A DNA stretch of 64,000 nucleotides from Nocardioides marinus (GTDB taxonomy: Bacteria; Pseudomonadota; Alphaproteobacteria; Rhodobacterales; Rhodobacteraceae). This document shows, piece by piece, positions 45,284 through 64,000 of the stretch (its first letter is position 1; each line of letters begins with the position of its first letter). The DNA lies in assembly GCA_019801415.1 (NCBI GenBank), contig JAHVJD010000006.1:62001-126000 (forward strand), read 5' to 3'. Under the pieces are notes generated by a model. The model saw only the letters and a list, made by a program, of their open reading frames with translations. It searched no databases and was not told the DNA's origin. A program made the position numbers and the translations under genes.

Positions 45284-45290
45284 GACAGCC

Positions 45291-47412: not shown

Positions 47413-49998
47413 CTAGGCTTCGATGTGGTCGAATTTGCCTTTCGCTCTGCGGGCTTCCGGGTGTCTCCGGTCAACGCCAAGGATCAGAACAATGTTCTTG
47501 GCGACATAGATTGACGAATAGGTCCCCACCACGACACCAAAAGAAATGGCCAGCGCAAAGCTGCGGATGACATCACCGCCGAACACCAGCAGGGCCAGCA
47601 AGGCTGCCAATGTGGTTGCCGAGGTGAGGATCGTGCGGCTCAGCGTTTCGCAGGCGGACAGGTTCAGGACGTCGCGCAAGGGCAATGCACTATGGCGCCG
47701 CAGGTTTTCACGCACCCGATCGAAGACGACCACCGTGTCATTGATCGAATATCCAAGAATGGTCAGGACCGCGGCCACGAATGCCAGATCAACCTTCAGA
47801 CCGAGCATCGCAAACAGGCCCAGCGTCAGCAACACATCATGCCCAAGCGCGATGACGGCCCCCACGGCAAACTGCCATTCAAAGCGCATCCAGACGTAGC
47901 CGAGTATCGACAGAACACCGCCCGATATGGCCAGCACGGCCGCGCGCACCAGTTCTGGTGACACTTTGCCCCCGATGCTTTCGCTTGCGGTGAAGCGAAT
48001 GTCCGGATCGACGGTCAGCAACGCAGCGCGGACCTCCTGCAATTGATCAGAGGATAGCACCGCCCCTTCCTCGCCTGCTGCGGCGAGGCGGAGGTTGGCG
48101 ACGTTCGCGTTGTCGACATTGCCCGCTGAAAACACCTCAGTGACAGAGACATCGGCCAAGCCCATGTTGTTCAGCACGTCACGATAGGCATCAAGGTGTA
48201 ATGCATGCGGTGTTTCGATGCGCAAACTGGTGCCGCCGGTGAAATCGATGCCCAAGTTCAACCCGAGCATTCCGATCACCAAGAGCGAGGCCAGCACGGC
48301 TGTGAGCGAGGCACCGAAAGTGACCTTTTGCAGCCGGAAGAAGTCGATCACATGGCGCCGCTCAAGAAAGCCGAGGCCCCCCCGCATGGGCAATTCCTTG
48401 GGCCGACGCCACTCCAGCCAGCTTTGCAGGATGAGTTTCGTAACGATCAAAGCCGTAAACATGGAAGTCAGAATGCCCAGCCCCAAGGTTATCGCAAAGC
48501 CACGCACCGGGCCTGCGCCGAGCCACAACATCAACCCGGCAGTCAGCAGTCCGGTCAGGTTGGCGTCCAGGATTGACGAAAATGCATTGTCAAAGCCGTT
48601 GCCGACGGCCCGCCACAGGTTGCGTTCGCGGCGCAGTTCCTCGCGTATCCGCTCGAAGATAAGGACATTGGCATCGACCGCCATTCCAAGTGTCAGGACG
48701 ATGCCGGCAATGCCCGGCAGGGTCAGGGTTGCGCCCACAAGGGTCAGCACGGCGACGAGGATCACCATGTTGATGGCCAGCGCGGCCACGGCAACCAGAC
48801 CCAGGCCGCCGTAGCAGGCTACCATCAGGGCACAAACGGCGGCCAGCCCGATCAAGGCTGCGCGCACCCCGGCTGCGATACTGTCGCTGCCCAGCTCTGG
48901 GCCAACGGTCTTTTCTTCCAGGAATGTCAGCTCTGCCGGAAGGGATCCGGCTCGAAGCAAGGTTGCGAGCTGCGATGTCTCCTCGACCGAGAACTGGCCG
49001 GTGATGATGCCGCTGCCACCGGCAATGTGCGACTGGATGACTGGCGCTGACAGAACCGTGTTGTCCAGCACGATGGCAAATGGGCTGCCGACGTGTCCGG
49101 CGGTGAAGTCTCCAAACGCAAGGGCCCCAGCTGTATCAAACCGGAAGGAGACCGCTGGGCGCCCGTTCGGATCAAAGCTTGCCTGCGCATCGGTCAGTTG
49201 TTCGCCCGACACCACCGGCCTTGGGTCAACGCGATAGGTGACGGCGGGGTTTGTTGCATCCGGCAGCATCAAGGCGTCGCCCGGTGCGGTTTCGCTCGCT
49301 GGCAAGACGGCGTGGAACGAGAGTTGCGCAGTGGTCCCGATCAGTGCCTTCAGCGCGTCCGCATCAGAAAAGCCCGGAACCTCGATCAGGATGCGATCGC
49401 TACCCTGTCGAACGATGGTGGGCTCCCGGGTTCCGGCCTCGTCGATCCGGCGTCGTACCGTTTCGAGGCTCTGTGTTACCAGCTGGTTGGCGAGGGCGTC
49501 TCTGCCGACGGCGCTGTAGCGCAGTTCCAGAATGCCGTTTTCGGCCGTTATCTCCAGATCCGGGGTGCTCGGTCCAGAGGTCCCCGCGACGTGGGTTGCA
49601 AAGCGCGTTGCGACGTCCCGTGCCCGCGGGGCGAAGCTGGCGGGTGTGACAGCGACGCGCAAAACGCCGGATGGCGCAGTGAGTTTGCGAACCTGAACCG
49701 TGCGGCCGCCCTCATCCCGCAGCGCGTCGCGCAAGCTTGGCCACAAGGCGGCGAGGCGCTGGTCGATTGCGCCGGTAACGTCCACCTCGGCGAGCAGATG
49801 TGCGCCGCCGCGCAGGTCAAGGCCGAGGTTGATCAGTCCGGACGGCAATAGGCGTTGCCAGGCGGTTTCCGCGGTGGGTCTGGTGTCGGTATCCTGCGCG
49901 TCCATTTGCGCGTAAAAGGCGTTGGGGAGGGCGAGCCACAGGCAGAGCAGGCAGATGCCCCATACGCCGAGGCGTTTCAAAAAGGTTGGTCTTTGCAT
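47413..49998 (-). CDS. secDF: Fused protein-export membrane protein SecDF
   Basis: An 861-residue fusion of SecD and SecF. The SecD half has TM1 (about 10-30), LGLDLRGGAHLLAEVD (57-73), a large periplasmic P1 domain and a five-helix block with TLGMAVDANVLIFERIREEL. The SecF half starts near residue 555 (FFRLQKVTFG) with GIDFTGGTSLRIE and GYSINDTVVVFDRVRENLRR. The two halves carry the conserved Asp residues used in proton-driven pulling. Alphaproteobacteria usually have separate secD and secF, so this may be a second copy. ATG 49998 follows GGAGAGATC. Confidence 0.9.
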   Translation of the reverse strand: MQRPTFLKRLGVWGICLLCLWLALPNAFYAQMDAQDTDTRPTAETAWQRLLPSGLINLGLDLRGGAHLLAEVDVTGAIDQRLAALWPSLRDALRDEGGRTVQVRKLTAPSGVLRVAVTPASFAPRARDVATRFATHVAGTSGPSTPDLEITAENGILELRYSAVGRDALANQLVTQSLETVRRRIDEAGTREPTIVRQGSDRILIEVPGFSDADALKALIGTTAQLSFHAVLPASETAPGDALMLPDATNPAVTYRVDPRPVVSGEQLTDAQASFDPNGRPAVSFRFDTAGALAFGDFTAGHVGSPFAIVLDNTVLSAPVIQSHIAGGSGIITGQFSVEETSQLATLLRAGSLPAELTFLEEKTVGPELGSDSIAAGVRAALIGLAAVCALMVACYGGLGLVAVAALAINMVILVAVLTLVGATLTLPGIAGIVLTLGMAVDANVLIFERIREELRRERNLWRAVGNGFDNAFSSILDANLTGLLTAGLMLWLGAGPVRGFAITLGLGILTSMFTALIVTKLILQSWLEWRRPKELPMRGGLGFLERRHVIDFFRLQKVTFGASLTAVLASLLVIGMLGLNLGIDFTGGTSLRIETPHALHLDAYRDVLNNMGLADVSVTEVFSAGNVDNANVANLRLAAAGEEGAVLSSDQLQEVRAALLTVDPDIRFTASESIGGKVSPELVRAAVLAISGGVLSILGYVWMRFEWQFAVGAVIALGHDVLLTLGLFAMLGLKVDLAFVAAVLTILGYSINDTVVVFDRVRENLRRHSALPLRDVLNLSACETLSRTILTSATTLAALLALLVFGGDVIRSFALAISFGVVVGTYSSIYVAKNIVLILGVDRRHPEARRAKGKFDHIEA

Positions 49999-50562: not shown

Positions 50563-53055
50563 TCAACCAAGGTCCGGCAGGCTGACACCGCGCTTCCTGG
50601 CGCTTTCCTGAACCGCGGAACGGAGTGTCTTGCTGCGGCTCAGCAGGCGGCGGAAGCGGTTCTCGTCCAGCTCCAGCAGGGTTGTCGGTGCAATGACCCG
50701 GATCTCGGTGGGGAGAGTTCTCCTCGCCAGAATTGCCATTTGCCCAAACATGTCTCCCCGGCCCAATCGAACGACCTGGCCGGCCGTTTCCGCCTCCACG
50801 GCACCGGAGGCGATGAAATAGACGCTGCGCACCGCCGTGTCCTTGCGCAGGATGACTTTCCCTGCGTTGACGTAATGCGTTTTCAGAACCCGTGCCAGGC
50901 GACGGGTTGCGGTCTCGTCCAGATCGGCGAAGAGGGGAAATTGACGGACCAGCGCGGTCTTCTGCACCGCGATGTCAAGCCGGGGGCGCGTTTCGGCCTT
51001 GGCCCGCCGCGCCTCCAGATCCTGCATAACCGACATGTAGACCTCGGCTCCGACCAACCCGTCCTCGCGCATCGACAGGTACTCGCGCTCCTCAAGCCGC
51101 AGTGCGGTACGGCGGATGAAGCGGCGCTCCAGCTGCTCGGCATAGCCGGGGTATTGCAGGCGTAAGCCGTCCAGAGCTGTCTCCACCGCGTCCACCCGGC
51201 GCGTCAACAACTCGTGCAGCAGTTCCGCGACCCGGCGGCCGTGAATGCGGCGGATGCGGTTGTCTATAAAGCTTCCCAAGTCACGTAGGATAAGCCGTTG
51301 AGACAGCAGGAGTTCAAACCGGTCGGCCGTGATCCTTGCCAAGGGCGCGGAGATGCCAAGCCGGGAATTCAGCCAGCCCGCGATCCGGAACGTCGGGCCA
51401 TAGGCAAGATTGCGCCTTGCGACGCGTTGGTATCCGCTGCGCCCTTGCGAGCGGGCACCTTCGATCAGGCGGTCTGCATTCGCCAGCGCCATTTCAGCCA
51501 TGCGTGCCGAAATCGTCTGTTCGCGCAGTCGCGCCAGAATGCTGTCGCGCTCGTGGCCCGCCAGCGCAATCAGCCCAAGGGTGATCCGGTCGCGATCAAG
51601 GATATCGGCGCTGTCCTCGGCCCGTTTCACGGCGGCTTCGAGACGCTCGCCAAACTGGATGGCCTCGGCGCGTACGGTTTCGCGGTTGAGCTCGTAGTTC
51701 TCGTTGGTCTGCGCGATATCTTCGCGCACTGTCTGCAGCGCCACGGCGACCACTTGGCGGGACAGCGCCTGGTCAATGGAGGACAGCTGGTCGAGGCCGA
51801 GGCGCCCGATCACCCAACGCAAGGTGGTGCCCTGTACCAACAACGTAAACAGGGTGAACCCGGTGGCGAGGATGCCGACCACGCGTTGGATCTCCGCGGG
51901 CACGCGAAAGCTCTCGGTCACGGCCAGGGCCAGCGCCAGCGTGACCGCCCCGCGAAGTCCGCCCCAGAGGATCGCGACCCGGTAGGGCCGTTCCACTTTC
52001 GGGGACAGCTTGACCTTGGTCAAAAGCGGCAGCAGCGCAAACAGGATAACGGCCCGTGCAGCGATTGCTGCAATGACCACCACGCCGACCAGCAAGACCT
52101 CCTGCAGCGAAACCTTCTCCAGCAGGCGCGGGATCAACAACGCGGCGAGGATAAAGATCAACGCCCCGGCCCAATGGGCCAGCACATCCCAAAGCTCGCG
52201 CAGGTTTGCCCAGGCTTGCGGCGGCAACCGCCCGGGCGCGGTGAGATTGAGTGTGAGACCACTGGCAACAACCGCGATGACGCCGGAGGCGCCGACGCTT
52301 TGCTCTGCGATGATATAGGCGAGGTAGGGCAGGGCGGCGGAGATGGAGACCTGCGCCAGCTCGTGACGCCGGAACAGTCCCATGATCCAGACCGCGGCGC
52401 GCGCCAAGGCCCAACCGGTTCCCGCGCCGCCTAGGATCAGAAGCGGGAACCGGGCCAGGGCCTCTTCCAGATCGGGATCAGGAAGCCCCAACATGACAAA
52501 CCCCATGAATAACCCGAACAGCGCAATCGCCGCGGCATCGTTTAAAAGGCTTTCACCCTCGATGATGCGCGCAAGTCGGCGGGGGGCAGAGATCGACCGA
52601 AAGATCGAGACAACTGCCGATGGATCGGTGGTTGAAACGATGGAGCCGATCAACAGGCACGCGGCGAGCGGCAGGGCGCTCACCCAAGCCAGCGCGTATC
52701 CCACGCTGAGGGTGGCGACGACCACCGCCACCACGGCCAGCATGAGGATCGGCACCCAGTCATCCAGCATCCGCCGCAGCTCCATGCCGAGTGTGGCCTG
52801 GAACAACAATGTTGGCAGAAATACGTAAAGGAACACATTTGAGCGGATCGGCAGGCCGAGAATTGCTTCTGCCACCGGATTCAGGGCGTCGGTGAGCTCG
52901 GTATGCAGGAAAAAGGCCGCAGCGATTGCGATCAGGCTGCCGAAAACAGCGAGGATCACGCTGTAAGGCAATCGCAGTCGTGCGGCCAGCGGTTCGGCCA
53001 CGCCAATTACAAGAAACAACGATGCGATAATTGTGGTGACGACAACGATATCCAT
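50563..53055 (-). CDS. CPA1/NhaP-type cation:proton antiporter with C-terminal cyclic-nucleotide-binding-like domain
   Basis: An 830-residue protein. About residues 1-410 form a 12-13 helix antiporter with the CPA1 motif IVSTTDPSAVV and the ESLLNDAAAIALFG motif. A long helical cytoplasmic region follows (about 430-700), then a cNMP-binding fold from about residue 706 (FPLFADLDETATRRLARVLK). In that fold the phosphate-binding cassette reads GDMFGQMAILARRTLPTE: Gln772 replaces the usual Glu and Leu781 falls where the usual Arg sits, so cAMP or cGMP binding is doubtful. Architecture recalls SOS1-type Na+/H+ antiporters. Role: pH or sodium homeostasis. Confidence 0.9.
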   Translation of the reverse strand: MDIVVVTTIIASLFLVIGVAEPLAARLRLPYSVILAVFGSLIAIAAAFFLHTELTDALNPVAEAILGLPIRSNVFLYVFLPTLLFQATLGMELRRMLDDWVPILMLAVVAVVVATLSVGYALAWVSALPLAACLLIGSIVSTTDPSAVVSIFRSISAPRRLARIIEGESLLNDAAAIALFGLFMGFVMLGLPDPDLEEALARFPLLILGGAGTGWALARAAVWIMGLFRRHELAQVSISAALPYLAYIIAEQSVGASGVIAVVASGLTLNLTAPGRLPPQAWANLRELWDVLAHWAGALIFILAALLIPRLLEKVSLQEVLLVGVVVIAAIAARAVILFALLPLLTKVKLSPKVERPYRVAILWGGLRGAVTLALALAVTESFRVPAEIQRVVGILATGFTLFTLLVQGTTLRWVIGRLGLDQLSSIDQALSRQVVAVALQTVREDIAQTNENYELNRETVRAEAIQFGERLEAAVKRAEDSADILDRDRITLGLIALAGHERDSILARLREQTISARMAEMALANADRLIEGARSQGRSGYQRVARRNLAYGPTFRIAGWLNSRLGISAPLARITADRFELLLSQRLILRDLGSFIDNRIRRIHGRRVAELLHELLTRRVDAVETALDGLRLQYPGYAEQLERRFIRRTALRLEEREYLSMREDGLVGAEVYMSVMQDLEARRAKAETRPRLDIAVQKTALVRQFPLFADLDETATRRLARVLKTHYVNAGKVILRKDTAVRSVYFIASGAVEAETAGQVVRLGRGDMFGQMAILARRTLPTEIRVIAPTTLLELDENRFRRLLSRSKTLRSAVQESARKRGVSLPDLG

Positions 53056-53137: not shown

Positions 53138-53968
53138 TTATTCAGCGGCCACGGTGGGTTTGGCCCAATCCTCCCATCCGGTGCCTGTTCGGGTGATCGG
53201 TCCATCCCAGGCAAAGGGAATTTGGTGTATCGTGGTGTCTTTTCCTTCAGTGCAAATCACGAAATAGGCGGGTGCCATCGGCGCGCCTTGCAGAAATTCG
53301 CTCTCGTTCATGTCGGGCAACGACTGGTTGCCGGTCGATGGCACGCTGGCAAACGGCACACCTGCAAAGACGCCGTGAACAGGCGCGTGAACATGGCCAA
53401 AGTGGATATAGTCAATCTTTGCAGCATGCTGGCGGATCAGCGCATGAAGTGGCGCACGGTGCTCTTCGATAAGTGCGATTTTGTCCTCGGCAGGCAGCCC
53501 CAGCGGCATCGGGTTGTGATGCAGGAAGATCCTTGCACGCGCGCAGCTTTCCAGCTCGGTCGCCAACCAAGCGCGGCGGGCAGAGCAAAAATGACCTGCA
53601 TGCGTTCGCTCGCCCACGCTGTCGAGGTAGATGAAACGGGTTTCGCCGACCGTTTCGGCATGATTGACGAACCCGTGCGGATCGAGGGGGTGATCGTCAA
53701 AGACGGAACGGAATTGGGCGCGGTCATCGTGGTTACCAATCATCAGGCGGACGGGGATGCTCAGACCTGATATGGCCGTTTTCAGAGCTTCATAGGCGGC
53801 GCGCTCCCCCCAATGCGCCAGATCACCAGTGATGATGATCCGGGCAGCGTCGGGATGGTGTTCGGCCACATGCCTCAGCGCCTGATCAAAGCGCGCATGC
53901 GGATCGAGGCCGCCCATCTCTTCGCCTGGGATGGTCAGGTGGATATCGGAAATGTGAATGATTTTCAT
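53138..53968 (-). CDS. Calcineurin-like phosphodiesterase (GpdQ/CpdA family)
   Basis: A 276-residue metallophosphoesterase with all five family motifs: DIH (Asp8, His10), GDLAHWG (Asp49), GNHDD (Asn79, His80), FLHHNP and HFGHVHAP. The family covers glycerophosphodiesterase GpdQ and cAMP phosphodiesterase CpdA. It follows a ugp-like binding-protein gene after 65 bases on the same strand, which favours a glycerophosphodiesterase role; a cNMP-type antiporter gene next on the same strand leaves the cAMP option open. ATG 53968 starts the conserved MKIIHISDIH. No signal peptide. Confidence 0.88.
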   Translation of the reverse strand: MKIIHISDIHLTIPGEEMGGLDPHARFDQALRHVAEHHPDAARIIITGDLAHWGERAAYEALKTAISGLSIPVRLMIGNHDDRAQFRSVFDDHPLDPHGFVNHAETVGETRFIYLDSVGERTHAGHFCSARRAWLATELESCARARIFLHHNPMPLGLPAEDKIALIEEHRAPLHALIRQHAAKIDYIHFGHVHAPVHGVFAGVPFASVPSTGNQSLPDMNESEFLQGAPMAPAYFVICTEGKDTTIHQIPFAWDGPITRTGTGWEDWAKPTVAAE

Positions 53969-54033
53969 GTGTTTGCTCTGGTCACTTGAGGGCCCGACCG
54001 CGCAAGTGGCCTTGGCGCGGCCGGGCTGTATCA

Positions 54034-55281
54034 TTAGCTGTTCGGCAGCAGGTCAGAGATTTCGTCGACCAGCTCTTCTTGCAGTGCTTTCATGTCGGTG
54101 GCGTCGCCGGTGACGATCCGTTCGATCCCGTCATAGATCACCTGGGTGATGGCCAGCCCGTTGGTGCCGGGATAGGCCTGCCAATCGCGCAGAAGCGGCA
54201 GTTGGTCCACTGCGGTCTGCTTGTTGGGGTTGCGTTCGTAGAAGTCGGCGAGGATCACCTCGTTTGCGGCTTTGTTCGGCGGCATGTAGCCGGTGGTCTT
54301 GGCAACTTCGGCTGCGCCGCTGCCCGAGGTGATGAATTTCAGCCAGGCCCAGGCTGCCTTCTGTACCTTGGGATCGTCGGAAGTCGAGGTCAGCATCGCT
54401 GCGTTGCCGCCAGCAGGCAGTCCCGTGGGGGGCGTCCCCATGCCCGGGAAGGGGCCGGTGACCAGTTCAAAGTCGCCTTGCGACCGTTCGACAGCGCCCA
54501 AAGCCGACGTCGACCAGAACATCATGCCGATTTCCCCGGCGGAAAAGGAGGCCAGAGCGGCTTTCCAATCCAGGTTCTGCATGTCGCACCGGGTGAAGAT
54601 CTCCTGCATCTGCTGGAGGGCTGCCAGGGCCTCGGGGCTGTCCATGGTCACGGCACCGTTTTCGACGATCGCCTTGTCCTGCGACCACATCAACGCTTGC
54701 AGAAACCAGTTTCCGGTAACGTTCCAGCCCCAGAAGATCGGGTTGTCCACCCCTTCGGCTTTCATGGTTTCGCAGGCTGCGATGACCTCGTCCCAGGTCT
54801 CGGGCAACGCGTCAACCCCTGCTTTGCGCAGGATATCCATGTTGTAGTAACCGACCGGCAGCGAGACCGAAAATGGCAGGCTGTAGACCGCTCCGACAAA
54901 GGTCGAGAGGGAGAGCATGGCATCGTGATAGCCGTCTTTGGCGAAATCCGCTTCTTCGGCAATGAACAGGTCCAGCGGTTTGGCGATGCCTTTTTCGACC
55001 AGGATCTGCTGCCGGTTCAGACCCTGCATTGTCACGTCGGGCAGGTTTCCCGAAACGGCTTCGCGCAGGATCGTGTTGGTGCCGTCCTCATAGGAGTCAT
55101 AAGTGGCGCGAAACTTCACCTCGATGTTGGGATGGGCCGCCTTGAACTCGGGCATCATCGCCTCGTAGGTGACGTCAAACAGGTGGCTGTAGGGGTAGGC
55201 GAACTCGATGGTCACGGTGTCCTGGGCCATCGCGACGGAGGCAGATACCGCAAGGGCGATTGCGGGCAGGGTGGGTTTCAT
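54034..55281 (-). CDS. UgpB-like periplasmic binding protein of second ugp-type importer
   Basis: A 415-residue SBP with signal peptide MKPTLPAIALAVSASVAMA, then QDTVTIEFAYPYSHLFDVTY. UgpB-like features: FSVSLPVGYYNMDILRKAGV and TTGYMPPNKAANEVI. Several Cys are present (for example CETMK and RCDMQ). It is unusual in lying behind the ATPase and permeases instead of in front of them. Ligand likely glycerol-3-phosphate, a glycerophosphodiester or a related phosphorylated compound. Confidence 0.87.
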   Translation of the reverse strand: MKPTLPAIALAVSASVAMAQDTVTIEFAYPYSHLFDVTYEAMMPEFKAAHPNIEVKFRATYDSYEDGTNTILREAVSGNLPDVTMQGLNRQQILVEKGIAKPLDLFIAEEADFAKDGYHDAMLSLSTFVGAVYSLPFSVSLPVGYYNMDILRKAGVDALPETWDEVIAACETMKAEGVDNPIFWGWNVTGNWFLQALMWSQDKAIVENGAVTMDSPEALAALQQMQEIFTRCDMQNLDWKAALASFSAGEIGMMFWSTSALGAVERSQGDFELVTGPFPGMGTPPTGLPAGGNAAMLTSTSDDPKVQKAAWAWLKFITSGSGAAEVAKTTGYMPPNKAANEVILADFYERNPNKQTAVDQLPLLRDWQAYPGTNGLAITQVIYDGIERIVTGDATDMKALQEELVDEISDLLPNS

Positions 55282-55343
55282 GGAACTCTTCCTCTCATTC
55301 CTGGATTGGAGCGCAGGTGTTTGGCAAAGCGCGCTCTGCTATG

Positions 55344-55388
55344 ATCCCGGTCGGGATTTCGGGCGGGTGCGGCGTGTGCCGCACCCGC
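55344..55388 (-). terminator. Hairpins between second permease and its binding-protein gene
   Basis: A perfect 11-bp stem with a 4-base loop (GCGGGTGCGGC at 55363-55373, complement 55378-55388) starts 3 bases past the permease stop. A 6-bp palindrome ATCCCG-GT-CGGGAT (55344-55357) follows. No T-run. They may separate expression of the permease segment from the binding-protein/phosphoesterase segment, or hide a second promoter region. Confidence 0.55.
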
Positions 55389-55391
55389 AAA

Positions 55392-56354
55392 TCACTTCAT
55401 TCCGCTCAGGGTGATGCCTTCGATGAACCGCTTCTGTGCCAGCAGGAAGGCAACGATCAGCGGCGTGACGATGACGGTGGCCGTCGCCATCATCGGGCCG
55501 AAGTAGGATCCGTCACCGTCTCCTTTGAATTCGCGGAGCCCCAGCGGCGGGGTGAACAGATCCCGGTTGCCCGTCACCACGATGCGCGGCCAGAAGTAGT
55601 CGTTCCAATGTGCAACGATCGAGAAGATGGCGAAGGCCAGCAGTGCGGGGATGGCCGTGGGCAACATCACGCGCCACACAATTGCGAATTCGCCCATCCC
55701 GTCCATGCGCGCGGCATCGATCAGATCATCGGGGACCGTCATGAAGAACTGTCGCATCAGGAAGATCCCGAAAACGCTGATGGTCCACGGCACCACCAGC
55801 GCCGCATAGGTGTTGGTCAAACCGAGTTTCGCCAGGATTATGTAGAGCGGCAGCGCGATGGCATGGACCGGGATCAGCAAGCAGAACAGCACCAGGCCGA
55901 ACACCGCTTCCCGTCCCCAGAATTTCAGTTTGGCCAAGGCATAGGCCGCAGGGAGCGCCACAACTGCCTGGATCAGAAAGATCGACACCGTCACCGCGAT
56001 CCCGTTCAGCAGGTAGCGCAGCAGTGGCGCTTCCGAGAACGCCTTGGTGTAATTGAACACAACCGGCCGCATGGAGCAGGCGCTCTTCGCCTCGGCGATC
56101 AGAGCGGTTCGGATCGCATTTTCGGTCTGGCCGGGAAAGCGTTGGCTGGCTGCTGCGATATCCTTGCGGTCAGGTGCACGCAGGCTGACACAGCGTTCAT
56201 CGACCATCAGCTCCTGCCGACCAAAGAAGCCGCCTTCCCCCCTCTCGATTTCGCCGGGGGATTTGAAAGAATAGCTGACCATCAGGTAGAAGGGCGCGAT
56301 GACGACGATCATGCCAAGGATCAGGATCAGATGTTTCCACCAGTCGCGTGTCAT
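55392..56354 (-). CDS. UgpE-like permease with enlarged periplasmic loop
   Basis: A 320-residue permease, about 35-40 residues longer than ugpE at 5606-6457. The C-terminal two thirds are standard (EAA loop DLIDAARMDGMGEFAIVWRV). After TM1 the periplasmic loop has an extra segment of about 55 residues (roughly 38-95) holding Cys55 and Cys93. The insertion is hydrophilic and could bind the SBP or be stabilised by a disulfide. Overlaps the partner permease stop by one base. Confidence 0.87.
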   Translation of the reverse strand: MTRDWWKHLILILGMIVVIAPFYLMVSYSFKSPGEIERGEGGFFGRQELMVDERCVSLRAPDRKDIAAASQRFPGQTENAIRTALIAEAKSACSMRPVVFNYTKAFSEAPLLRYLLNGIAVTVSIFLIQAVVALPAAYALAKLKFWGREAVFGLVLFCLLIPVHAIALPLYIILAKLGLTNTYAALVVPWTISVFGIFLMRQFFMTVPDDLIDAARMDGMGEFAIVWRVMLPTAIPALLAFAIFSIVAHWNDYFWPRIVVTGNRDLFTPPLGLREFKGDGDGSYFGPMMATATVIVTPLIVAFLLAQKRFIEGITLSGMK

Positions 56355-57349
56355 CAGTAATGAACCTTTCTTTCGACCAGCCAGCGTTGGATGAGGGTCA
56401 GGAACATGACGAAGGTCAGAAACAGCATGGTGATGGCGGAGCCGATCCCGATCAGGTTCTGTTGCACGCCTTTCTCGAAGATGGCGAACATCATCACGTA
56501 GGTTGACTTGTTGGGCCCGCCGCCCTGGGGCCAGAAGGCTTCGACCGTGTCAAAGACCTGGAAGGCGCGGATGCAGGTGATGGTGACAACGAAAACGGTG
56601 GTGGGGCCGAGCGCTGGCCAGGTTACTAGCCGGAACCGGTCCCATGCGGATCTGGCGCCATCCATTTCGGCAGCGTGGTAGAGCTCACGATGGACGGAGG
56701 TCAGCCCGGCCAGATAGAGCACCATGTTGAAGCCGAACCCCTGCCAGACTCCGATGAAGCAGATCACCCAGATGGCGTAGCGCTTATCTCCGAGCCAGAC
56801 CGGAAAGCGATCCGCGCAGCCGTTGGCGAGGAAGGGCCAGACCCGTTCCAGAAGTGTCCCGCAGCCCAGTTCCAGCGTCCGGTTGAGCATGCCGATTGTC
56901 GGGTGCAGCATGAACTCCCAGGCGATTGACATCGCCAGCAGCGTGGCCATCACGGGCAGAAAATAGATCGTCTTGTAGAGGGCGCCGAACCGTCCCAGAG
57001 AATGGATTAGAATGGCCGCCCCCAGTCCCAAGGCGACGGATAGGGGCACGACGGTGACAACATACGTCAGCGTTGCGACGAACATCTTTTCGTAGGAGGC
57101 GCGCGTGAATAGCTTTTCGTAGTTCGCGCTGCCGATCCAGTTGAAGCTGTCGCTGCCCAGCGAGTAGTCGGTGAAGGAGAGCAAGCCCGCGATAGCGACC
57201 GGTACCAGTAGGATCAGGACCATCAGGATCAGTGCGGGACCAGTCAGGGTCCAAGCCGCTCGATAATCTCTGATTACTGGGGCGGAATTGGTAGGGGTCG
57301 GCGGGGGCGTGCTCGCCTTCCCGGCGGATGGGACGTCAGGTGCAGGCAT
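56354..57349 (-). CDS. UgpA-like permease with inserted Cys-pair loop
   Basis: A 331-residue permease. The N-terminus is a Pro-rich tail (about residues 1-30), then TM1 (35-57). Between the LHPTIGMLN block and WLGDKRYAIW there is an extra periplasmic stretch of about 20 residues with Cys163 and Cys178, missing in ugpA at 6457-7338. The EAA loop is LYHAAEMDGARSAWDRFRLV. ATG 57349 follows the ATPase stop by one base; the longer frame to 57478 overlaps the ATPase and is rejected. Confidence 0.87.
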   Translation of the reverse strand: MPAPDVPSAGKASTPPPTPTNSAPVIRDYRAAWTLTGPALILMVLILLVPVAIAGLLSFTDYSLGSDSFNWIGSANYEKLFTRASYEKMFVATLTYVVTVVPLSVALGLGAAILIHSLGRFGALYKTIYFLPVMATLLAMSIAWEFMLHPTIGMLNRTLELGCGTLLERVWPFLANGCADRFPVWLGDKRYAIWVICFIGVWQGFGFNMVLYLAGLTSVHRELYHAAEMDGARSAWDRFRLVTWPALGPTTVFVVTITCIRAFQVFDTVEAFWPQGGGPNKSTYVMMFAIFEKGVQQNLIGIGSAITMLFLTFVMFLTLIQRWLVERKVHY

Positions 57350-57350
57350 G

Positions 57351-58508
57351 TTACGCGACCTCGGGTTTTGCGGCGAACGTCGGGCGCAGCTGCCGCAGGC
57401 GCTTGCCATGGGGATCGAACAGCAGGGCTTTTGCAGGATCGAATTCCAACCCCACCGGTGAGCCAAGTTGAAGCGCACGGCGTTGCTCGGGGTTCGCTCG
57501 CAGTGTGACGCGCTCTTTCAAAGCTGCGACTTCGACTTGTACGAAAAGCTCCGCGCCAAGGTTTTCGCGGTGTACGACATGGCCACGGATCGGGGCATTC
57601 TCACCCGCAAGCCGCAGCGCTTCGGGACGCAGGCCCAGCGAGCCCACGCCACGGCCGGCGCCGACGACCGAGAGCTCCAAGCGGCGGTCCAACAGGTGCA
57701 GTTGGCCGTCATCAGCGATCTCCACGGGGAGGATGTTGATCTTGTGAGCGCAGATGAACTCCGCCACGTCGATGTGGTCAGGATCTTCGTAAATGGTTTC
57801 TGGTGTTGCGCATTGCAGGATGCGCCCCCCCATCATCACCGCGATCCGGTCTGACATCGTCATCGCTTCCACCTGATCGTGGGTCACATAGACAAAGGTG
57901 GCCCGCAGTCGGCGATGCAGCTGCGCGATTTCCGCCCGGGTCTGCACCCGCAGCTTGGCGTCGAGGTTGGAGAGCGGCTCGTCCAGAAGGAAGGCCGCGG
58001 GCTCCCGGACCAGGGCCCGCCCCAAGGCAACCCGTTGGCGTTGCCCGCCCGAGAGCTGCCCAGGTTTGCGGTTCAGGAGATGCTCGATCTCCAGCATCTT
58101 CGCCGCTTGGTGGACGTCGTATTCGATTTTGCGGCTAGCGGCGCGACCCGACGGCAGCAGTCGAGCCGCCAGGGGCAGGCGCTGGAGCCTGCTCAACCGG
58201 CGCATCTTCAGCGGCACGGCAATGTTGTCCGCAACGCTGAGATGTGGGTAGAGCGCGTATGATTGAAAGACCATTGAAAGGTTGCGATCGGCGGCCCGAC
58301 GGTCGACAACCGACTGGCCCGCAATTCGGATATCGCCACTGGTCTGTGCCTCCAGCCCGGCGATGATACGCAGCAAGGTGGATTTGCCGCAGCCGGACGG
58401 GCCAACCAGAGAGACGAACTCTCCGTCTGCAATATCCAGTGAAACACCTTTGAGCACGTCCGTCTCATCAAAGCGCTTCGTCACGTTCACGATGCTCAGC
58501 TCGGTCAT
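57351..58508 (-). CDS. UgpC/MalK-type ATPase of second ugp-like importer
   Basis: A 385-residue ATPase: Walker [10 protein letters not shown], signature [14 protein letters not shown], Walker [14 protein letters not shown], switch [13 protein letters not shown] basic, Arg/Leu-rich insertion of about 30 residues (RLSRLQRLPLAARLLPSGRA) sits between the Q-loop and the signature, where ugpC at 4539-5594 has a short link. A TOBE domain follows. GGAGG precedes ATG 58508. First gene of this operon, divergent from a LysR gene. Confidence 0.9.
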   Translation of the reverse strand: MTELSIVNVTKRFDETDVLKGVSLDIADGEFVSLVGPSGCGKSTLLRIIAGLEAQTSGDIRIAGQSVVDRRAADRNLSMVFQSYALYPHLSVADNIAVPLKMRRLSRLQRLPLAARLLPSGRAASRKIEYDVHQAAKMLEIEHLLNRKPGQLSGGQRQRVALGRALVREPAAFLLDEPLSNLDAKLRVQTRAEIAQLHRRLRATFVYVTHDQVEAMTMSDRIAVMMGGRILQCATPETIYEDPDHIDVAEFICAHKINILPVEIADDGQLHLLDRRLELSVVGAGRGVGSLGLRPEALRLAGENAPIRGHVVHRENLGAELFVQVEVAALKERVTLRANPEQRRALQLGSPVGLEFDPAKALLFDPHGKRLRQLRPTFAAKPEVA

Positions 58509-58551
58509 CTGATTCCTCCGTCTGATGGAGGCGGTGTAAGAAGCTGAGCCT

Positions 58552-58577
58552 TCACTTTTGTGACGTCATATAAGTGA
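58552..58577. promoter_or_regulatory. 26-bp near-perfect palindrome between second ugp-like operon and LysR gene
   Basis: The dyad is TCACTT (58552-58557), TGACGTCA at the centre (58561-58568) and AAGTGA (58572-58577). Arms and centre are perfectly symmetric, with mismatches only in the two 3-base spacers (TTG and TAT). It lies 44 bases from the ATPase start and 43 from the LysR start, a typical LysR operator position. Confidence 0.7.
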
Positions 58578-58619
58578 GACTAATGGCAGCTAGGAGTGCG
58601 GCCAAAAGGGACCGATGCC

Positions 58620-59495
58620 ATGCGCGCCAACCATCACCAGTTCGTTGCCTTTGCCTACGTCGTGCGCGCGGGCAGTTTCTCGGCCGCGGCGACGCGGCTC
58701 GGGGTGTCGCAATCCGCGGTTACGCAACATGTGGCCAAACTGGAAAAACAGGTCGGATCGCAGCTGTTGTTGCGCAGCCGGGATGGCATTTCGCTGACGC
58801 GAACAGGGCAGGAGTTCTATGATCTCGCCGACCGTCTGGTCGCGCTGGATTCCGAAATCAGCGAGCGTCTTGAAGGCTTTGAAGCCATGGCGCGCGGACA
58901 CATCAAGGTCATTGCGAATGCCCCTCTGCCCGCTCTCAGGGCGATCAGCCTGTTCCGGCAAAGCTACCCTGATGTCGAAATAGACTTTGGTGTTTACGCA
59001 TGGACGACGGCAGTGCGATTGCTGCGGGAAAGGAAAGCGGATGTCGGGTTGATCACCGATCCCCCAAAAACCGAAGATTGGGAGCGGGTTCCGGTCCAGA
59101 CGGTTCGCTATGCCGCTTATCTGCACCCGTCATCGCCGCTGGCAAACCGCGAAGTGCTGCGGTTCGAGGATCTGGCCAAGGAAACGGTCATCCTGCCGGA
59201 AAGCGGCTCATTGACGGAACGCGTGGTCCGCGAAGCTCTGGTAAAACACGGGTGCGGGTTTCATCGTACCATAAAGATCACCACCTTTCCGCTCATGTGC
59301 GAGGCGGTGCTGCAGGGCGCTGGCGTCGCCATCTTCCTTGGCAACAGCGGATTGATCGCGCGTGGGTTGGTGGAATTGCCCGTCGCCGAATTGTCGCATA
59401 GGCATGAGACTGCGGTTGTTGCACCGAAAGACAGGGCGCGGCTTCGGTTGGTCAAAGCCTTTGTCGAGTTGGCATCCTCGTCAGACTTTCGCTGA
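58620..59495 (+). CDS. LysR-family regulator divergent from second ugp-like operon
   Basis: A 291-residue LysR protein: HTH at about residues 5-45 (QFVAFAYVVRAGSFSAAATR and GVSQSAVTQHVAKLEKQVGS) and a substrate domain from about 85 (GHIKVIANAPLPALRAISLF). ATG 58620 has GGGA upstream; an in-frame GTG at 58596 is possible. It faces away from the ABC operon across a 26-bp palindrome and probably controls it. Confidence 0.85.
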   Translation: MRANHHQFVAFAYVVRAGSFSAAATRLGVSQSAVTQHVAKLEKQVGSQLLLRSRDGISLTRTGQEFYDLADRLVALDSEISERLEGFEAMARGHIKVIANAPLPALRAISLFRQSYPDVEIDFGVYAWTTAVRLLRERKADVGLITDPPKTEDWERVPVQTVRYAAYLHPSSPLANREVLRFEDLAKETVILPESGSLTERVVREALVKHGCGFHRTIKITTFPLMCEAVLQGAGVAIFLGNSGLIARGLVELPVAELSHRHETAVVAPKDRARLRLVKAFVELASSSDFR

Positions 59496-59532: not shown

Positions 59533-60423
59533 TCAGGCAATTGCGGAACAGCTCGCCTGATCCTGTAGCCACGCGACCAACGCGGAAACTTCCGGCCGGA
59601 ACCGATTGCGTTCCTTGGGGAGCACCAGATAGTGCCCCTGTCGCGGTGGCAGCGTAAGCTCGCTGGCCTGAACAAGGGTGCCACGCTCCAGGTAGGGTCT
59701 GGCAAAGACCTCGGCCACCAAGGCGGTCCCTTGACCACGGCTTGCCAGTTCCAGCGCGATCAGAGACTGGTCAACCTTGTAGGCAGGCTCGTCCATCTGG
59801 CAATCAGGAGCATGCAGGGCGAAAAAATGCCGCCATGTGTCGACGACGCCCGCCAGTTCTATCAACGGCCCCTGTGCCAATGCGTTTGGGCCATCTTGGG
59901 TGCGCAGGGCAGGGGCACAGACAGCGATGACTTCGTTGGTCATAAGCGGCAGTACTTCCCCGTCGGACCAGTTGCCATCGCCGTAGCGGATATCGACGTC
60001 GATCTCCTCTCCATCCGCGAGCTCGGCCCAGGATGCCGACAGAACCCGCAGGCGACTGTCCGGATGCGCGCCCCTGAAATGCTCCAGTCGGGGGACCAGC
60101 CACAGCAGGTTTAGTGAGCTGACACAGCGCAGGGTTATTTCTGCCTCGGCGCCCTTGCCAAACAGGTTTGAGGTCGTGGCATCGAGATCGGCAAATGCCT
60201 TGGCCACCACTGGCCTGTAGGCCTGCCCCAACCGTGTCAGCACAAGCGCCTTGCGCTCTCGTCTAAACAGCTTGTGACCGAGCTGCGCTTCAAGGCCCCG
60301 TACCTGATAGCTGACTGCAGAGGGCGTCAGACCTAACTCCTCGGCGGCGAGGGTGAAATTTCCGAGGCGGGCACTGGCATCGAAGGCGCGTAGCCAAGGC
60401 AAGGGGGGGAGCTCTTTGTACAT
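59533..60423 (-). CDS. GcvA-like LysR regulator divergent from GMC/enolase/ALDH operon
   Basis: A 296-residue protein of the GcvA subgroup: LPPLPWLRAFDASARLGNFT at the start, HTH to about residue 60 (LGLTPSAVSYQVRGLEAQLG), and the diagnostic DVDIRYGDGNW in the effector domain. It is divergent from the GMC oxidoreductase gene (119-base gap), so it probably regulates that operon. Converges with the previous LysR gene. Confidence 0.87.
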   Translation of the reverse strand: MYKELPPLPWLRAFDASARLGNFTLAAEELGLTPSAVSYQVRGLEAQLGHKLFRRERKALVLTRLGQAYRPVVAKAFADLDATTSNLFGKGAEAEITLRCVSSLNLLWLVPRLEHFRGAHPDSRLRVLSASWAELADGEEIDVDIRYGDGNWSDGEVLPLMTNEVIAVCAPALRTQDGPNALAQGPLIELAGVVDTWRHFFALHAPDCQMDEPAYKVDQSLIALELASRGQGTALVAEVFARPYLERGTLVQASELTLPPRQGHYLVLPKERNRFRPEVSALVAWLQDQASCSAIA

Positions 60424-60542
60424 TTCCCTACATTATCGGCTCTGCAAATTTTTTTAAGGCAATCACGAATTTTTTTTCGTTTTGGATTTGGCCGTGAGGT
60501 TTGTAACGGTCGTGCGACAACACCAGTATCAGGCAGGGCGCA
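60424..60542. promoter_or_regulatory. Divergent promoter region with A/T tracts
   Basis: Contains two long T-tracts (60449-60455 and 60470-60477). A small dyad ACGAA-N6-TTCGT (60465-60469, 60476-60480) frames the second. Both A/T tracts and the dyad could serve the GcvA-like regulator. No clear sigma-70 boxes were recognised. Confidence 0.35.
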
Positions 60543-62153
60543 GTGGCGGAGTACGACTACATCATCATCGGAGCAGGATCCGCCGGCTGCGTGCTGGCGG
60601 ACCGGCTGAGCGCTTCGGGACGTCACAAGGTTTTGGTGCTGGAGGCCGGTGGTCGCGGCTGGTCGCCGTGGATTGCGCTACCACTGGGCTACGGCAAGAC
60701 TTTCTTTGACCCCAAGGTCAACTGGAAATTCCAGACCGAACCGGAAGAAGCCCTCGCAGGGCGAAGCGGGTATTGGCCACGGGGCAAGGTGGTCGGCGGC
60801 TCTGGCGCGATAAACGCGCTGGTCTATGCCCGCGGGCTGCCCCGGGATTTCGACGACTGGGCCGACGCCGGGGCAGAGGGCTGGGATTGGGAGACTGTTC
60901 GCCAGACCTACGAAGCGATGGAAAGGCGCAGCGATGCGGACGGGACGTTGCAGGGCGAAGGGCCGCTGCATGTTCAGGATGTCTCGGATCAGATCCATCC
61001 TGCAAACCGGCATTTCTTTGCGGCTGCGCAGGAACTTGGTCTGCCGTCCACGGACGATATCAACGGTTTTGCAAACGAGGGCGCGGCGATCTATCGGATC
61101 AACACGCGGGGCGGCCGTCGGATGCATTCGGCGCGGGCGTTCCTGAAACCGGCGTTGAGGCGCTCCAATGTCGCGCTGATGACCGGGGTACTGGCAGAGC
61201 GGATCGTTTTCGAAGGTCAACGCGCGGCTGCGGTTCAGGTGCGGCACAAGGGCAAGCGACGTACCCTGAAAGCTGGTCGTGAAATCATTCTTTCAGCCGG
61301 GGCCGTGGGCTCGCCGCAGCTTCTGCAACTGTCGGGGATTGGCCCCGCGGAGGTTCTCAAATCTCATGGGATCACGCCGCGACTTGCAGCGCCGCATGTG
61401 GGTGGAAACCTGCAGGACCACTTGGGTATCAACTACTATTTCCGTGCAACTGAACCCACATTGAACAACATGCTGCGCCCCTTCACAGGCAAGGTTCGCG
61501 CTGCGCTGCAATATGCGTTGACCCGGCGTGGACCGCTGGCCCTGTCGGTCAATCAGTGCGGCGGATATTTCCGCTCCGGCCCGGATCAGCGCCACCCTGA
61601 CCAGCAGCTGTATTTCAACCCGGTCACCTATACCACGACGCCGAATGGCAGGCGTACGGTGGTGCAGCCGGACCCGTTTCCGGGCTTTATTATTGGATTT
61701 CAGCCGGCTCGCCCCACCAGCCGTGGCCGTATCGACATCAGTACTGCCGACCCGGCGGCCCCGCCCCGCATCCGCCCCAATTCGCTTGCGACCGCGGAGG
61801 ATCGCGCGCAGGTCGTGGCCGGCGGGCGCCTGTGCCAGCGCCTGATTACGACCGCCGCACTGGACAGGTTAGTGGACTCGGCGATGGAGCCGGATCTGCG
61901 GCGTATGGACGATGCGCAGATCCTGGACGATTTTCGCGAGCGTTGCGGCACCGTCTTTCACCCTGTCGGCACCTGCCGCATGGGGCGGGATGCGCAGGAC
62001 GCGGTGGTCAGTCCGCGGCTGAAGGTGCATGGGGTGCAGGGGCTGCGCGTCGTCGATGCCTCGGTTTTTCCCAATCTGACCTCGGGCAACACCAATGCCC
62101 CGACCATGATGCTGGCGTACCGCGCCGCTGATCTCATTCTGGAGGACGCATGA
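60543..62153 (+). CDS. GMC-family FAD oxidoreductase (choline dehydrogenase-like)
   Basis: A 536-residue flavoenzyme oxidising an alcohol to an aldehyde. FAD motif IIIGAGSAGCVLADRL (GxGxxG at 10-15) and the second GMC signature GAVGSPQLLQLSGIGP are present. The active-site His473 is in FHPVGTCRMG, with Asn residues in GNTNAP near 516-518. Its length is close to BetA (about 550), but neighbours differ from bet operons, so choline is not assumed. Start is GTG 60543 with a weak AGGG upstream. Overlaps the next gene by 4 bases. Confidence 0.88.
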   Translation: MAEYDYIIIGAGSAGCVLADRLSASGRHKVLVLEAGGRGWSPWIALPLGYGKTFFDPKVNWKFQTEPEEALAGRSGYWPRGKVVGGSGAINALVYARGLPRDFDDWADAGAEGWDWETVRQTYEAMERRSDADGTLQGEGPLHVQDVSDQIHPANRHFFAAAQELGLPSTDDINGFANEGAAIYRINTRGGRRMHSARAFLKPALRRSNVALMTGVLAERIVFEGQRAAAVQVRHKGKRRTLKAGREIILSAGAVGSPQLLQLSGIGPAEVLKSHGITPRLAAPHVGGNLQDHLGINYYFRATEPTLNNMLRPFTGKVRAALQYALTRRGPLALSVNQCGGYFRSGPDQRHPDQQLYFNPVTYTTTPNGRRTVVQPDPFPGFIIGFQPARPTSRGRIDISTADPAAPPRIRPNSLATAEDRAQVVAGGRLCQRLITTAALDRLVDSAMEPDLRRMDDAQILDDFRERCGTVFHPVGTCRMGRDAQDAVVSPRLKVHGVQGLRVVDASVFPNLTSGNTNAPTMMLAYRAADLILEDA

Positions 62154-63322
62154 GCACGCCTTATTCCATGTCCGGCGCGGTGCCGGTCGCCAACATTCGC
62201 GGCAAGGACGACACCGGTCCGCGGATCCGCCGGATCGAGACCTTCTGCACGCCTTTGGTCGGCTTTGTGCGGGTCACCGCAGAGGACGGCAGCACCGGCT
62301 GGGGGCAGGTGTCCACCTACAGCAGCGATCTGACCTGCGAGATCCTGCACCGGCAGGTGGCGCCCTGGGCGCTGGGGCGCGGTATGGATGCGCTGGAGGA
62401 CGTGATCGCCGAGATCCCGCTGCGCGAGCACAAGTTCCCTGGAACCTATCTGCGCCGGGCCATGGCGGGACTGGACACCGCGGTCTGGGACTGGCGCGGC
62501 AAGGCGGCGGGAAAGCCCGTGGCTGAACTGCTGGGCGGCACGGCAGGGCCGCTGCGGGCCTATGCCTCCTCGATGCGGCGCGACATCACGCCCGAGGATG
62601 AGGCCACGCGCCTGCAACGCCTGCGCGATGACTATGGTTTTGATGCCTTCAAGGTGCGGGTCGGCGCCGAATGCGGCCAGGATCGGGACGAATGGGAGGG
62701 ACGGACCGAGGCGATCATCCCGGCCATCCGCAAGGCCATGGGACCGGATGCGGCGTTGCTGGTCGACGGCAACTCGGGGTTTGGCCCCGCCCGCGCGATT
62801 GAGGTCGGGCGGATGCTGGAGGCCAACGGTTACGAACATTTTGAGGAGCCTTGCCCCTATTGGGAGCTGGAACAGACCGCCGAAGTCACCCGCGAATTGT
62901 CCATCGACGTGGCGGGTGGCGAGCAGGACTGGGACCTGCAGCAGTGGAAGCGGATCGTTGCGATGCGCGCGGTCGACATCATTCAGCCCGATATTCTGTA
63001 TCTGGGCGGCATGGTGCGCAGCATGGAGGTGGCCCGCATGGGCCATGCTGCCGGCCTGCCTTGCACCCCCCATGCGGCCAACCTGTCGCTGGTGACGCTG
63101 TTCACCATGCATCTGCTGCGCGCAGTGCCCAATCCGGGCCGCTACCTGGAGTTCTCGATCGAGGGCGACGACTACTATCCCTGGCAGCGTGAGTTGTTCC
63201 GCAACGATCCCTTCACCATCACGGACGGTCAGGCGGTTGTGAGTGATGCCCCCGGTTGGGGCGTCGAGATCTGCCCCGAGTGGCTGGCCAAATCCACCTA
63301 CAAATGCAGCGAGGACGCATGA
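62150..63322 (+). CDS. Enolase-superfamily protein, mandelate racemase-like (probable acid-sugar or related dehydratase)
   Basis: A 390-residue MR/MLE-type enzyme. Metal ligands Asp206 (LLVDGNSG), Glu232 (FEEP) and Glu258 (GGEQD) are present. Acid/base candidates are Lys168-x-Arg170 (FKVRVG) on one face and His308 (TPHAAN) with Asp281 on the other. This set fits the mandelate-racemase group, whose members abstract a proton alpha to a carboxylate. The substrate cannot be named. It overlaps both neighbours (ATGA), so it works with an alcohol and an aldehyde dehydrogenase. Confidence 0.87.
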   Translation: MSTPYSMSGAVPVANIRGKDDTGPRIRRIETFCTPLVGFVRVTAEDGSTGWGQVSTYSSDLTCEILHRQVAPWALGRGMDALEDVIAEIPLREHKFPGTYLRRAMAGLDTAVWDWRGKAAGKPVAELLGGTAGPLRAYASSMRRDITPEDEATRLQRLRDDYGFDAFKVRVGAECGQDRDEWEGRTEAIIPAIRKAMGPDAALLVDGNSGFGPARAIEVGRMLEANGYEHFEEPCPYWELEQTAEVTRELSIDVAGGEQDWDLQQWKRIVAMRAVDIIQPDILYLGGMVRSMEVARMGHAAGLPCTPHAANLSLVTLFTMHLLRAVPNPGRYLEFSIEGDDYYPWQRELFRNDPFTITDGQAVVSDAPGWGVEICPEWLAKSTYKCSEDA

Positions 63323-64000
63323 TGACCTCCGACCGGATGATTTCCACCTATTTCGAAACCGGCACCTTGCCGGATCTGCCGCGCGACCATTTCATCGATG
63401 GCGCATTCGTAGCGGCTGACAGCGGCAACCGCATGGAAAGCTTCGATCCCGGCACCGGCGAAGCCTTTGCCGATTTTGCCGCCGGCACCGCGGCCGATGT
63501 GGACCGCGCCGTGACCAGCGCCGCCGAAGGCTTCGAGGCCTGGCGCAACACGCCGCCCGCCCGCCGCTGCGCCATCCTGAACGAGGCGGCGCGCCTGATG
63601 CGCGCCGAGGCGGACAGGTTGGCGGTGGTCGAAAGCCTCGACAGCGGCAAGACGCTCGCTGAGGCGCAGGGGGACGTTGCGGGTTCGGCACGTCTGTTCG
63701 AATACTACGCAGGTGCCGCGGACAAGCTGGACGGGCGCAGCGTCAACCTTGGCAACGGCAACGCCGCTTTCACCCTGCGAGAGCCTGTGGGCGTGACCGC
63801 GCATATCGTGCCGTGGAACTATCCGACCTCGACGCTGGTACGCGGTATCGCCCCGGCGCTGGCGGCGGGCTGTTCGGCGGTGGTTAAACCGGCGGAAACC
63901 ACGCCCTTTACCGCGCTGATGATTGCCGAACTGCTGCTGCGCGCGGGCGTGCCTGCCGGGGTCGTCAACGTGGTCACCGGCACCGGCATCGAGGCCGGTG
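63319..64000 (+). CDS. Aldehyde dehydrogenase, 3' truncated by window edge
   Basis: The first 227 residues of an NAD(P)-dependent aldehyde dehydrogenase of the betaine-aldehyde type. Visible: DHFIDGAFVAADSGNRMESF, GEAFADFAAGTAADVDRAV, the VTAHIVPWNYPTSTLV block before the cofactor site, VVKPAETTPFTALMIAELLL and GVVNVVTGTG. The catalytic Cys lies beyond the window. ATG 63319 overlaps the enolase stop; a second ATG follows at once. It should oxidise the aldehyde made by the GMC enzyme. Confidence 0.9.
   Translation, partial: MMTSDRMISTYFETGTLPDLPRDHFIDGAFVAADSGNRMESFDPGTGEAFADFAAGTAADVDRAVTSAAEGFEAWRNTPPARRCAILNEAARLMRAEADRLAVVESLDSGKTLAEAQGDVAGSARLFEYYAGAADKLDGRSVNLGNGNAAFTLREPVGVTAHIVPWNYPTSTLVRGIAPALAAGCSAVVKPAETTPFTALMIAELLLRAGVPAGVVNVVTGTGIEAG

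Follow-up and report, generated by a model that had tools for sequence, protein, structure and literature searches.

A GMC-family oxidoreductase gene and a mandelate racemase-type enolase gene, joined in a conserved pair, open an operon that may belong to an uncharacterised pathway; our tentative reading, which we hold at just short of evenly balanced, is that the operon serves the uptake and breakdown of a small hydroxylated molecule that probably contains nitrogen. The pair lies at the right-hand end of a 64,000-nucleotide stretch of the Nocardioides marinus assembly GCA_019801415.1 (contig JAHVJD010000006.1, positions 62,001 to 126,000; G000:C6:62001-126000 in our numbering of this 3.89 Mb genome), hereafter the window, and is followed by an aldehyde dehydrogenase (ALDH) gene that runs past the window's edge. 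This trio is a member of a broad, structurally sampled family and not a singular operon; this analysis adds the genes by which the operon extends, an invariant Lys-x-Arg (KxR) signature of the enolase and what it probably means, arguments against choline, and the hypothesis of an amine substrate. Within the taxonomic family of the window, enolases of this family are common; they include four structures without a named function, and the identity of the substrate would both give an activity to the KxR enolase clade and name a piece of the flow of carbon and nitrogen from phytoplankton to bacteria.

A conserved GMC-enolase core within a larger operon

The initial annotation described the three genes as coupled by ATGA overlaps and as facing a GcvA-like LysR gene, and the open reading frames agree on both counts—ATGA stands at the GMC/enolase and the enolase/ALDH junctions, each start overlapping the preceding stop by 4 nt, and the divergent LysR gene is separated from GMC by 119 bp. 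GcvA is the best NCBIfam model for this regulator but falls short of its cut-off (Table 1), so the protein is GcvA-like and not GcvA itself. Past position 64,000, where the annotation had pointed to the downstream genes, the same locus in extended coordinates (L009) contains the end of ALDH (495 aa in full, L009:8320-9807, with its stop 806 bp beyond the edge) and then a dipeptide-type ABC transporter, SBP5-DppB-DppC-DppDF. The trio is thus the first part of a larger run. Successive gaps from ALDH to DppDF measure 36, 24, 12, and 10 bp (first listed starts taken), and the seven genes look like one transcription unit.

Relatives of the enolase were found in 44 of 149 sampled genomes of the window's family, its own genome included (E <= 1e-60), in 9 of 398 genomes sampled from the phylum (E <= 1e-80), and in 69 plasmid records, 58 of them from Phaeobacter; plasmids of Shinella, Paraburkholderia, and the haloarchaeal Haladaptatus also carry members. 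Phaeobacter inhibens DSM 17395 has relatives of both the enolase (PGA1_RS18240) and GMC (PGA1_RS18235). In a tree of 99 enolases and two outgroup rows (95 different rows among the 101), the window enolase belongs to a clade of 55, here clade A (support 96/99), in which six pairs with identical enolase proteins, present in two collections, are counted separately. In 54 of these 55 loci the gene immediately before the enolase is GMC, and in the remaining one (L030) the contig begins inside GMC; the 4-nt stop/start overlap is preserved in 47/55. A GMC match was present in one of 40 control stretches. Since GMC occupies the upstream position in 54/55 loci, the arrangement is not a product of chance.

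The trio as a unit, by contrast, did not hold up, as only 18 of the 55 clade-A loci have ALDH, and one of these 18, in Ruegeria marina (L012:10170-10451), is a match of 94 residues while GMC and enolase match over their full length; ALDH is therefore dispensable or replaced there. SBP5 follows in 4/55 clade-A loci and stands directly after the enolase in seven loci of another clade, where no GMC match precedes the enolase in four (L063, L072, L080, L083) and the contigs of the other three (L082, L085, L086) begin within 0.8 kb. The SBP5 protein beside the L080 enolase has the operon's SBP5 as its best match in the window genome (566 bits, against 441 for the next). Thus GMC and enolase form the conserved core, and ALDH and the transporters are variable. 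Short-chain or zinc alcohol dehydrogenase genes near some enolases that have no GMC (L080, L063, L074) suggest that other enzymes keep the alcohol oxidation step where GMC is absent.

Table 1. Features of the operon and its regulator; positions refer to the window unless prefixed with L009
Feature	Position	Strand	Evidence
LysR-type regulator, GcvA-like, divergent from operon	59533..60423	-	Pfam HTH_1 and LysR_substrate; GcvA model 221.3 bits, cut-off 288
Probable LysR operator palindrome CRAA-N6-TTYG, here CGAATTTTTTTTCG	60466..60479	.	Match in 24/25 LysR-GMC gaps
GMC-family FAD (flavin adenine dinucleotide) alcohol oxidoreductase, 536 aa, GTG start	60543..62153	+	Pfam GMC_oxred_N/C; active-site His in 54/54 aligned relatives
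Enolase-superfamily enzyme, mandelate racemase subgroup, KxR type, 390 aa	62150..63322	+	Pfam MR_MLE_N/C; 599 bits to 3u4f
Aldehyde dehydrogenase (ALDH), first part in window	63319..64000	+	Betaine-aldehyde dehydrogenase model 464.5 bits, cut-off 668.6
SBP5	L009:9844-11415	same as ALDH	Family match
DppB	L009:11440-12465	same as ALDH	
DppC	L009:12478-13293	same as ALDH	
DppDF (fused)	L009:13304-14908	same as ALDH	Family match

Amine-type genes beside relatives of the pair

We favour an amine substrate because relatives of the GMC-enolase pair adjoin MocR, polyamine-type ABC transporter, and DAO genes in other taxa. The neighbourhoods compared were 48 enolase stretches of at least 15 kb (43 of the 80 loci, L009, and L104-L107, with L103, L108, and L109 left out) and 40 control stretches placed at hand-picked round coordinates in 14 enolase-holding genomes of the family; seven of these control stretches come from the genome of the window. 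One or more amine markers were present in 23/48 enolase stretches and 5/40 controls (Fisher p = 3e-4), a comparison in which the markers were drawn from the same loci they were counted in and relatives are not independent. For the window's clade alone the figures were 11/30 and 5/40 (p = 0.018), and DAO was enriched singly (7/48 vs 0/40, p 0.012). At L024, a class-III aminotransferase gene and a glutamine-synthetase-like gene come after the enolase, with homologues of both in L034.

Eight further loci—seven matches from the phylum sample and one on a Paraburkholderia plasmid, with enolases 57-65% identical—were read after the markers had been chosen, and are thus independent of that choice, if not of ancestry. 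Homologues of GMC, MocR, PotA, and PotB were each present in seven of the eight, as was a POT-type binding protein; DAO was found in five and ALDH in three. Matches at L171, one of the seven, are weak (MocR 32%, binding protein 27%; MocR and transporter 27-45%). The same trio stands beside amine genes in other taxa, and that of L166 is predicted to be orthologous to the window's by best hits taken in one direction at this one locus: within the window genome, the ALDH beside the L166 enolase matches the window ALDH best by a clear difference (636 bits, with the runner-up at 394), and the L166 GMC matches the window GMC best by a narrow one (583 vs 538 bits).

Beyond the shared origin of markers and counts, several results weigh against an amine substrate. 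More than half of the enolase stretches (25/48) have no amine marker at all, and L048 was counted only through enzymes of models other than carnitine dehydrogenase, its removal leaving 22/48 (p = 6e-4). Singly, there was no clear enrichment of MocR (6/48 vs 1/40, p 0.09), DMGDH (5/48 vs 2/40, p 0.3), the aminotransferase (p 0.55), or the glutamine-synthetase-like protein (p 0.08). One of the eight further loci, L169, has none of the amine set and instead a DppB-like gene. The window operon itself includes no amine oxidase, MocR, or aminotransferase gene, and L009 is not among the amine-marker loci; it has a dipeptide-type transporter and a LysR regulator, and the genome's nearest match to MocR, on another contig, has only 35% identity.

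The closest link to published data comes from the megaplasmid of Ruegeria pomeroyi DSS-3, where the enolase gene SPO_RS21750 is flanked by an ALDH gene on one side and by MocR, DAO, and ABC genes on the other. This run (SPO_RS21745-21790, approximately SPOA0377-0386) encodes an enolase 62% and a GMC protein (SPO_RS21790) 52% identical to those of the window, together with an ALDH that is only 39% identical, a MocR regulator, two DAO oxidases, and a polyamine-type ABC transporter; gene order, regulator, and transporter type differ from those of the window operon. Gene order and product names indicate that its ABC genes correspond to SPOA0381-0384, an equivalence we drew because PMC9870897 gives SPOA0374 as a binding protein of TRAP type and SPOA0381 as one of polyamine type, seven genes apart, as in the genome record. 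The same paper reports SPOA0381 and SPOA0384 to be 2.4-fold and 2.8-fold up with Micromonas. According to PMC9038784, SPOA0381-0384 are a spermidine influx system (after Mou et al. 2010); in diatom co-culture their noon/night transcript ratios were 22.7-53.4, and the noon peak is common to 91% of R. pomeroyi influx genes and so not special to these four.

The spermidine assignment counts further against the amine reading on two grounds. Mutants described in PMC10130141 assign the transport of spermidine, putrescine, and cadaverine to potFGHI, and no SPOA03 tag occurs in that paper's main text. Because the potFGHI mutants account for spermidine transport, SPOA0381-0384 may carry another amine as their true substrate. 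Spermidine, moreover, has neither hydroxyl nor carboxylate and therefore cannot be the enolase's substrate. In its most specific form, which we regard as doubtful, the amine reading describes a new pathway of catabolism for a marine hydroxylated amine, such as an amino polyol or a polyamine derivative bearing hydroxyl groups, whose terminal carbinol GMC and ALDH would oxidise to give an amino hydroxy acid that the KxR enolase would dehydrate or deaminate by beta-elimination, with importers (peptide-type, polyamine-type, or other) and control by LysR or MocR varying by lineage.

The enolase active site and its probable chemistry

All of the catalytic positions named in the initial annotation are in place, the motif reading K168-V-R170, with His308 and Asp281 as given and D206, E232, and E258 present as well. 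K168, R170, D206, E232, E258, D281, H308, and E334 are each invariant in 99/99 related enolases from public and family genomes, so that the D-E-E metal ligands and His-Asp dyad of the mandelate racemase subgroup occur at every position throughout. Arg170, which departs from the common KxK, had been suggested to mark a specificity of its own; the arginine is indeed there, but it is no peculiarity of this gene, being shared by all 99 enolases and by four close structures, and also by the distant 3n4e. Among Escherichia coli enzymes the second motif position is Lys in GudD, Asn in DgoD, and Pro in RhmD. Because RhmD and DgoD likewise have no second lysine, KxR tells of chemistry more than of a rare specificity. 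A single His-Asp base without an opposite lysine suits one-base elimination better than two-base racemisation, and the analogy favours elimination by the window enzyme.

From these observations we infer an order of steps in which LysR would sense the compound or its product and switch the operon on, the ABC transporter would bring the compound in, GMC would convert a carbinol to an aldehyde, and ALDH would convert the aldehyde to an acid. The His308-Asp281 single base of the enolase could then remove the proton alpha to the carboxylate to give a metal-stabilised enolate, from which a beta substituent—water or, less likely, an amine—would be expelled, as in sugar-acid dehydratases, to yield a 2-keto acid.

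How far the resemblance to sugar-acid dehydratases extends bears on a plainer account, in which the operon serves a sugar or sugar alcohol, GMC and ALDH turn a polyol or aldose into an aldonate, which the enolase, as an ordinary dehydratase of such acids, converts to a 2-keto-3-deoxyaldonate. This is possible, although on balance we think it unlikely. The enolase (MR_MLE_C, 176.8 bits in Pfam) has the gluconate/galactonate, arabinonate, and galactonate dehydratases as its nearest curated models, yet its scores of 114-122 bits are weak against cut-offs of 311-750, and among the 15 NCBIfam families listed it exceeds no cut-off (best 122.4 vs 750). The dyad His and Asp and most metal ligands of RhmD, DgoD, and GudD (a D-glucarate dehydratase) align with it, and RhmD (an L-rhamnonate dehydratase) and DgoD (a D-galactonate dehydratase) share its want of a second KxK lysine; by curated cut-off, however, it lies far outside these families (galactonate dehydratase model, 114 vs 311 bits), and Y57, D60, H67, R144, and D260, invariant in its own family, differ there, as far as a distant alignment can be read. 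Distant PDB relatives in a profile search include chains named galactonate dehydratase and talarate/galactarate dehydratase, a glucose-6-phosphate dehydrogenase gene comes after the enolase-Dpp genes of L063, and regulators of the LacI type (L015) and RpiR type (SIS domain; L019) are found near the pair, all in favour of a sugar pathway. On the other hand, no PfkB-type sugar kinase or keto-deoxy-aldonate aldolase appeared among 40 neighbour proteins scanned with Pfam, a minority of the neighbours, and transporters seen next to the enolase usually belonged to the peptide or polyamine type, TRAP and MFS genes accounting for some.

The closest relatives of known structure are 3u4f, 3tcs, 3t8q, and 3t9p (540-600 bits), which belong to the same family as the window enolase and keep KxR. 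Their PDB names are generic, so that they speak to fold and not to function, and the close match to a characterised family that would have counted against the initial annotation's proposal did not appear. By title, none of the papers listed for these four codes is about the proteins, and one paper uses 3T9P as a helix template only. The annotation's further remark that it knew of no described pathway with exactly this trio also stands: we found no named function for it in the literature, judged mostly from search listings and with most subscription journals outside coverage, and none of the three enzymes reaches a cut-off among the curated models shown.

One of the four structures, 3tcs, is named a putative racemase, which raises the question of whether the enolase might act as a racemase or epimerase correcting the stereochemistry of the acid from GMC and ALDH. 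The ligand set of mandelate racemase is present, including E334 at what we take to be the position of that enzyme's electrophilic Glu. A two-base racemase, however, needs a base on each face, and the second KxK lysine is Arg in all 99 enolases, which makes this role improbable and leaves elimination as the preferred chemistry.

The oxidoreductase pair and choline oxidation

Scores of 179.5 bits for GMC_oxred_N and 139.2 bits for GMC_oxred_C (Pfam) place the first enzyme in the GMC superfamily. Its best curated models are both choline dehydrogenase, and both lie above it in cut-off (495.9 vs 605; 408.7 vs 732.1 for TIGR01810); it is under the cut-off of all 9 NCBIfam models listed. ALDH has as its nearest curated model the betaine-aldehyde dehydrogenase TIGR01804, whose cut-off it does not reach (Table 1), nor does it reach any among 25 of the 37 NCBIfam models listed. 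These affinities invite a quaternary-ammonium pathway in which GMC and ALDH are diverged forms of BetA and BetB whose substrate is a choline analogue or a compound of the carnitine type, with the enolase acting on the betaine. Choline oxidation by betA-betB also uses a GMC and ALDH gene pair, to whose E. coli proteins the window GMC and ALDH are 34% and 37% identical.

Against such a pathway, to which we give little credence, the genome has betA (850.1 bits, C2:346441-348027) and betaine-aldehyde dehydrogenase (709.5 bits) genes, both over cut-off and adjoining on contig C2, whereas the window pair is under cut-off. The glutamate of the BetA QDHLE motif, which we take from its role in choline oxidase to bind the ammonium group, is absent in 54/54 GMC proteins (Gly in 47, Ala in 7). 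Choline, whose analogues the initial annotation named among substrates to screen with GMC, is thus argued against, and a choline or betaine reading of the trio is unlikely. Of the annotation's other candidates, polyols keep a place through the sugar reading, and our comparison of loci adds amines.

Carnitine offered a second route to the same kind of substrate. In L051, which is Roseicyclus-like, a single run (L051:7214-13292) contains GMC and enolase followed directly by BKACE, SDR, and carnitine 3-dehydrogenase genes, the last over cut-off, and homologous genes lie close by in L038-L040 and L042. The arrangement suggests that, in a Roseicyclus lineage, the pathway became attached to the catabolism of carnitine. 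We did not adopt the carnitine link, as the set is found in one lineage only and in 0/8 of the further loci. An opine reading was likewise set aside, the top PDB match of SBP5, AgaA, being too weak at 116 bits.

We consider it highly improbable that the adjacent genes act on different substrates through linkage that is simply inherited: ALDH and the transporters do come and go, and in many loci outside clade A no GMC match adjoins the enolase, but the clade-A overlap is preserved, and GMC and enolase occur together again in the distant loci (7/8) in a different gene order.

Regulation

A divergent LysR gene lies 104-134 bp from GMC in 25 loci, and all but one of the gaps (24/25; absent in L051) contain a palindrome, CRAA-N6-TTYG, which shuffled gaps contain about 0.024 times each; we defined the pattern only once the alignment had been viewed, and the dinucleotide shuffle falls back to single bases upon failure. 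Eight loci whose LysR proteins are only 39-42% identical have the form CAAA-N6-TTTG, and the other 16 palindromes comprise ten of CGAA-N6-TTCG and six with one half of each kind. Judged from this recurrence, the palindrome is probably the LysR operator, through which the divergent LysR would control the operon.

Neighbouring genes and other observations

Upstream of the LysR gene, positions 53138-59495 hold sugar- or glycerophosphodiester-type ABC genes (SBP_bac_1/8, two permeases, ATPase) and a calcineurin-like phosphoesterase gene, facing a second LysR gene whose best model is an aminoethylphosphonate regulator (159 vs 341 bits); they perhaps serve phosphodiester scavenging. We considered this block as a part of the pathway and treat it as a separate neighbour, because its genes rarely or never recur at other enolase loci. 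Across 95 such loci the binding protein and LysR were matched in none, the phosphoesterase in one (L088, 31%), and one permease in two (L088, 38%; L024, 30%).

Elsewhere in the window, a single 861-aa protein combines SecD and SecF domains (47413-49998), and a sodium/proton exchanger has a C-terminal cyclic-nucleotide-binding domain (50563-53055). An SMP-30/gluconolactonase gene adjoins a GH42 beta-galactosidase gene (44438-47198); as the GH42 open frame begins inside the SMP-30 gene, its true start is probably later.

Several enolase loci and one related operon showed further features. The window's genome has a second SBP5-Dpp operon (L117:5279-11355), with an SBP5 close to that of the window operon and followed by a type I phosphodiesterase gene. 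Beside GMC-enolase-ALDH in L048 (12570-15992) are genes over cut-off for the 3-hydroxyacyl-CoA dehydrogenase and 3,5-dioxohexanoate:acetyl-CoA transferase models, plus an SDR gene. Another conserved enolase setting, L074:8002-14657, comprises CorA, enolase, SDR, and a CehA/McbA-type metallohydrolase, with flavin reductase, GntR, and amidohydrolase genes on the opposite side. Finally, the Haladaptatus plasmid (L108:87-10125) carries three mandelate-racemase-family genes within approximately 10 kb, one of them a KxR-family member on a long branch.

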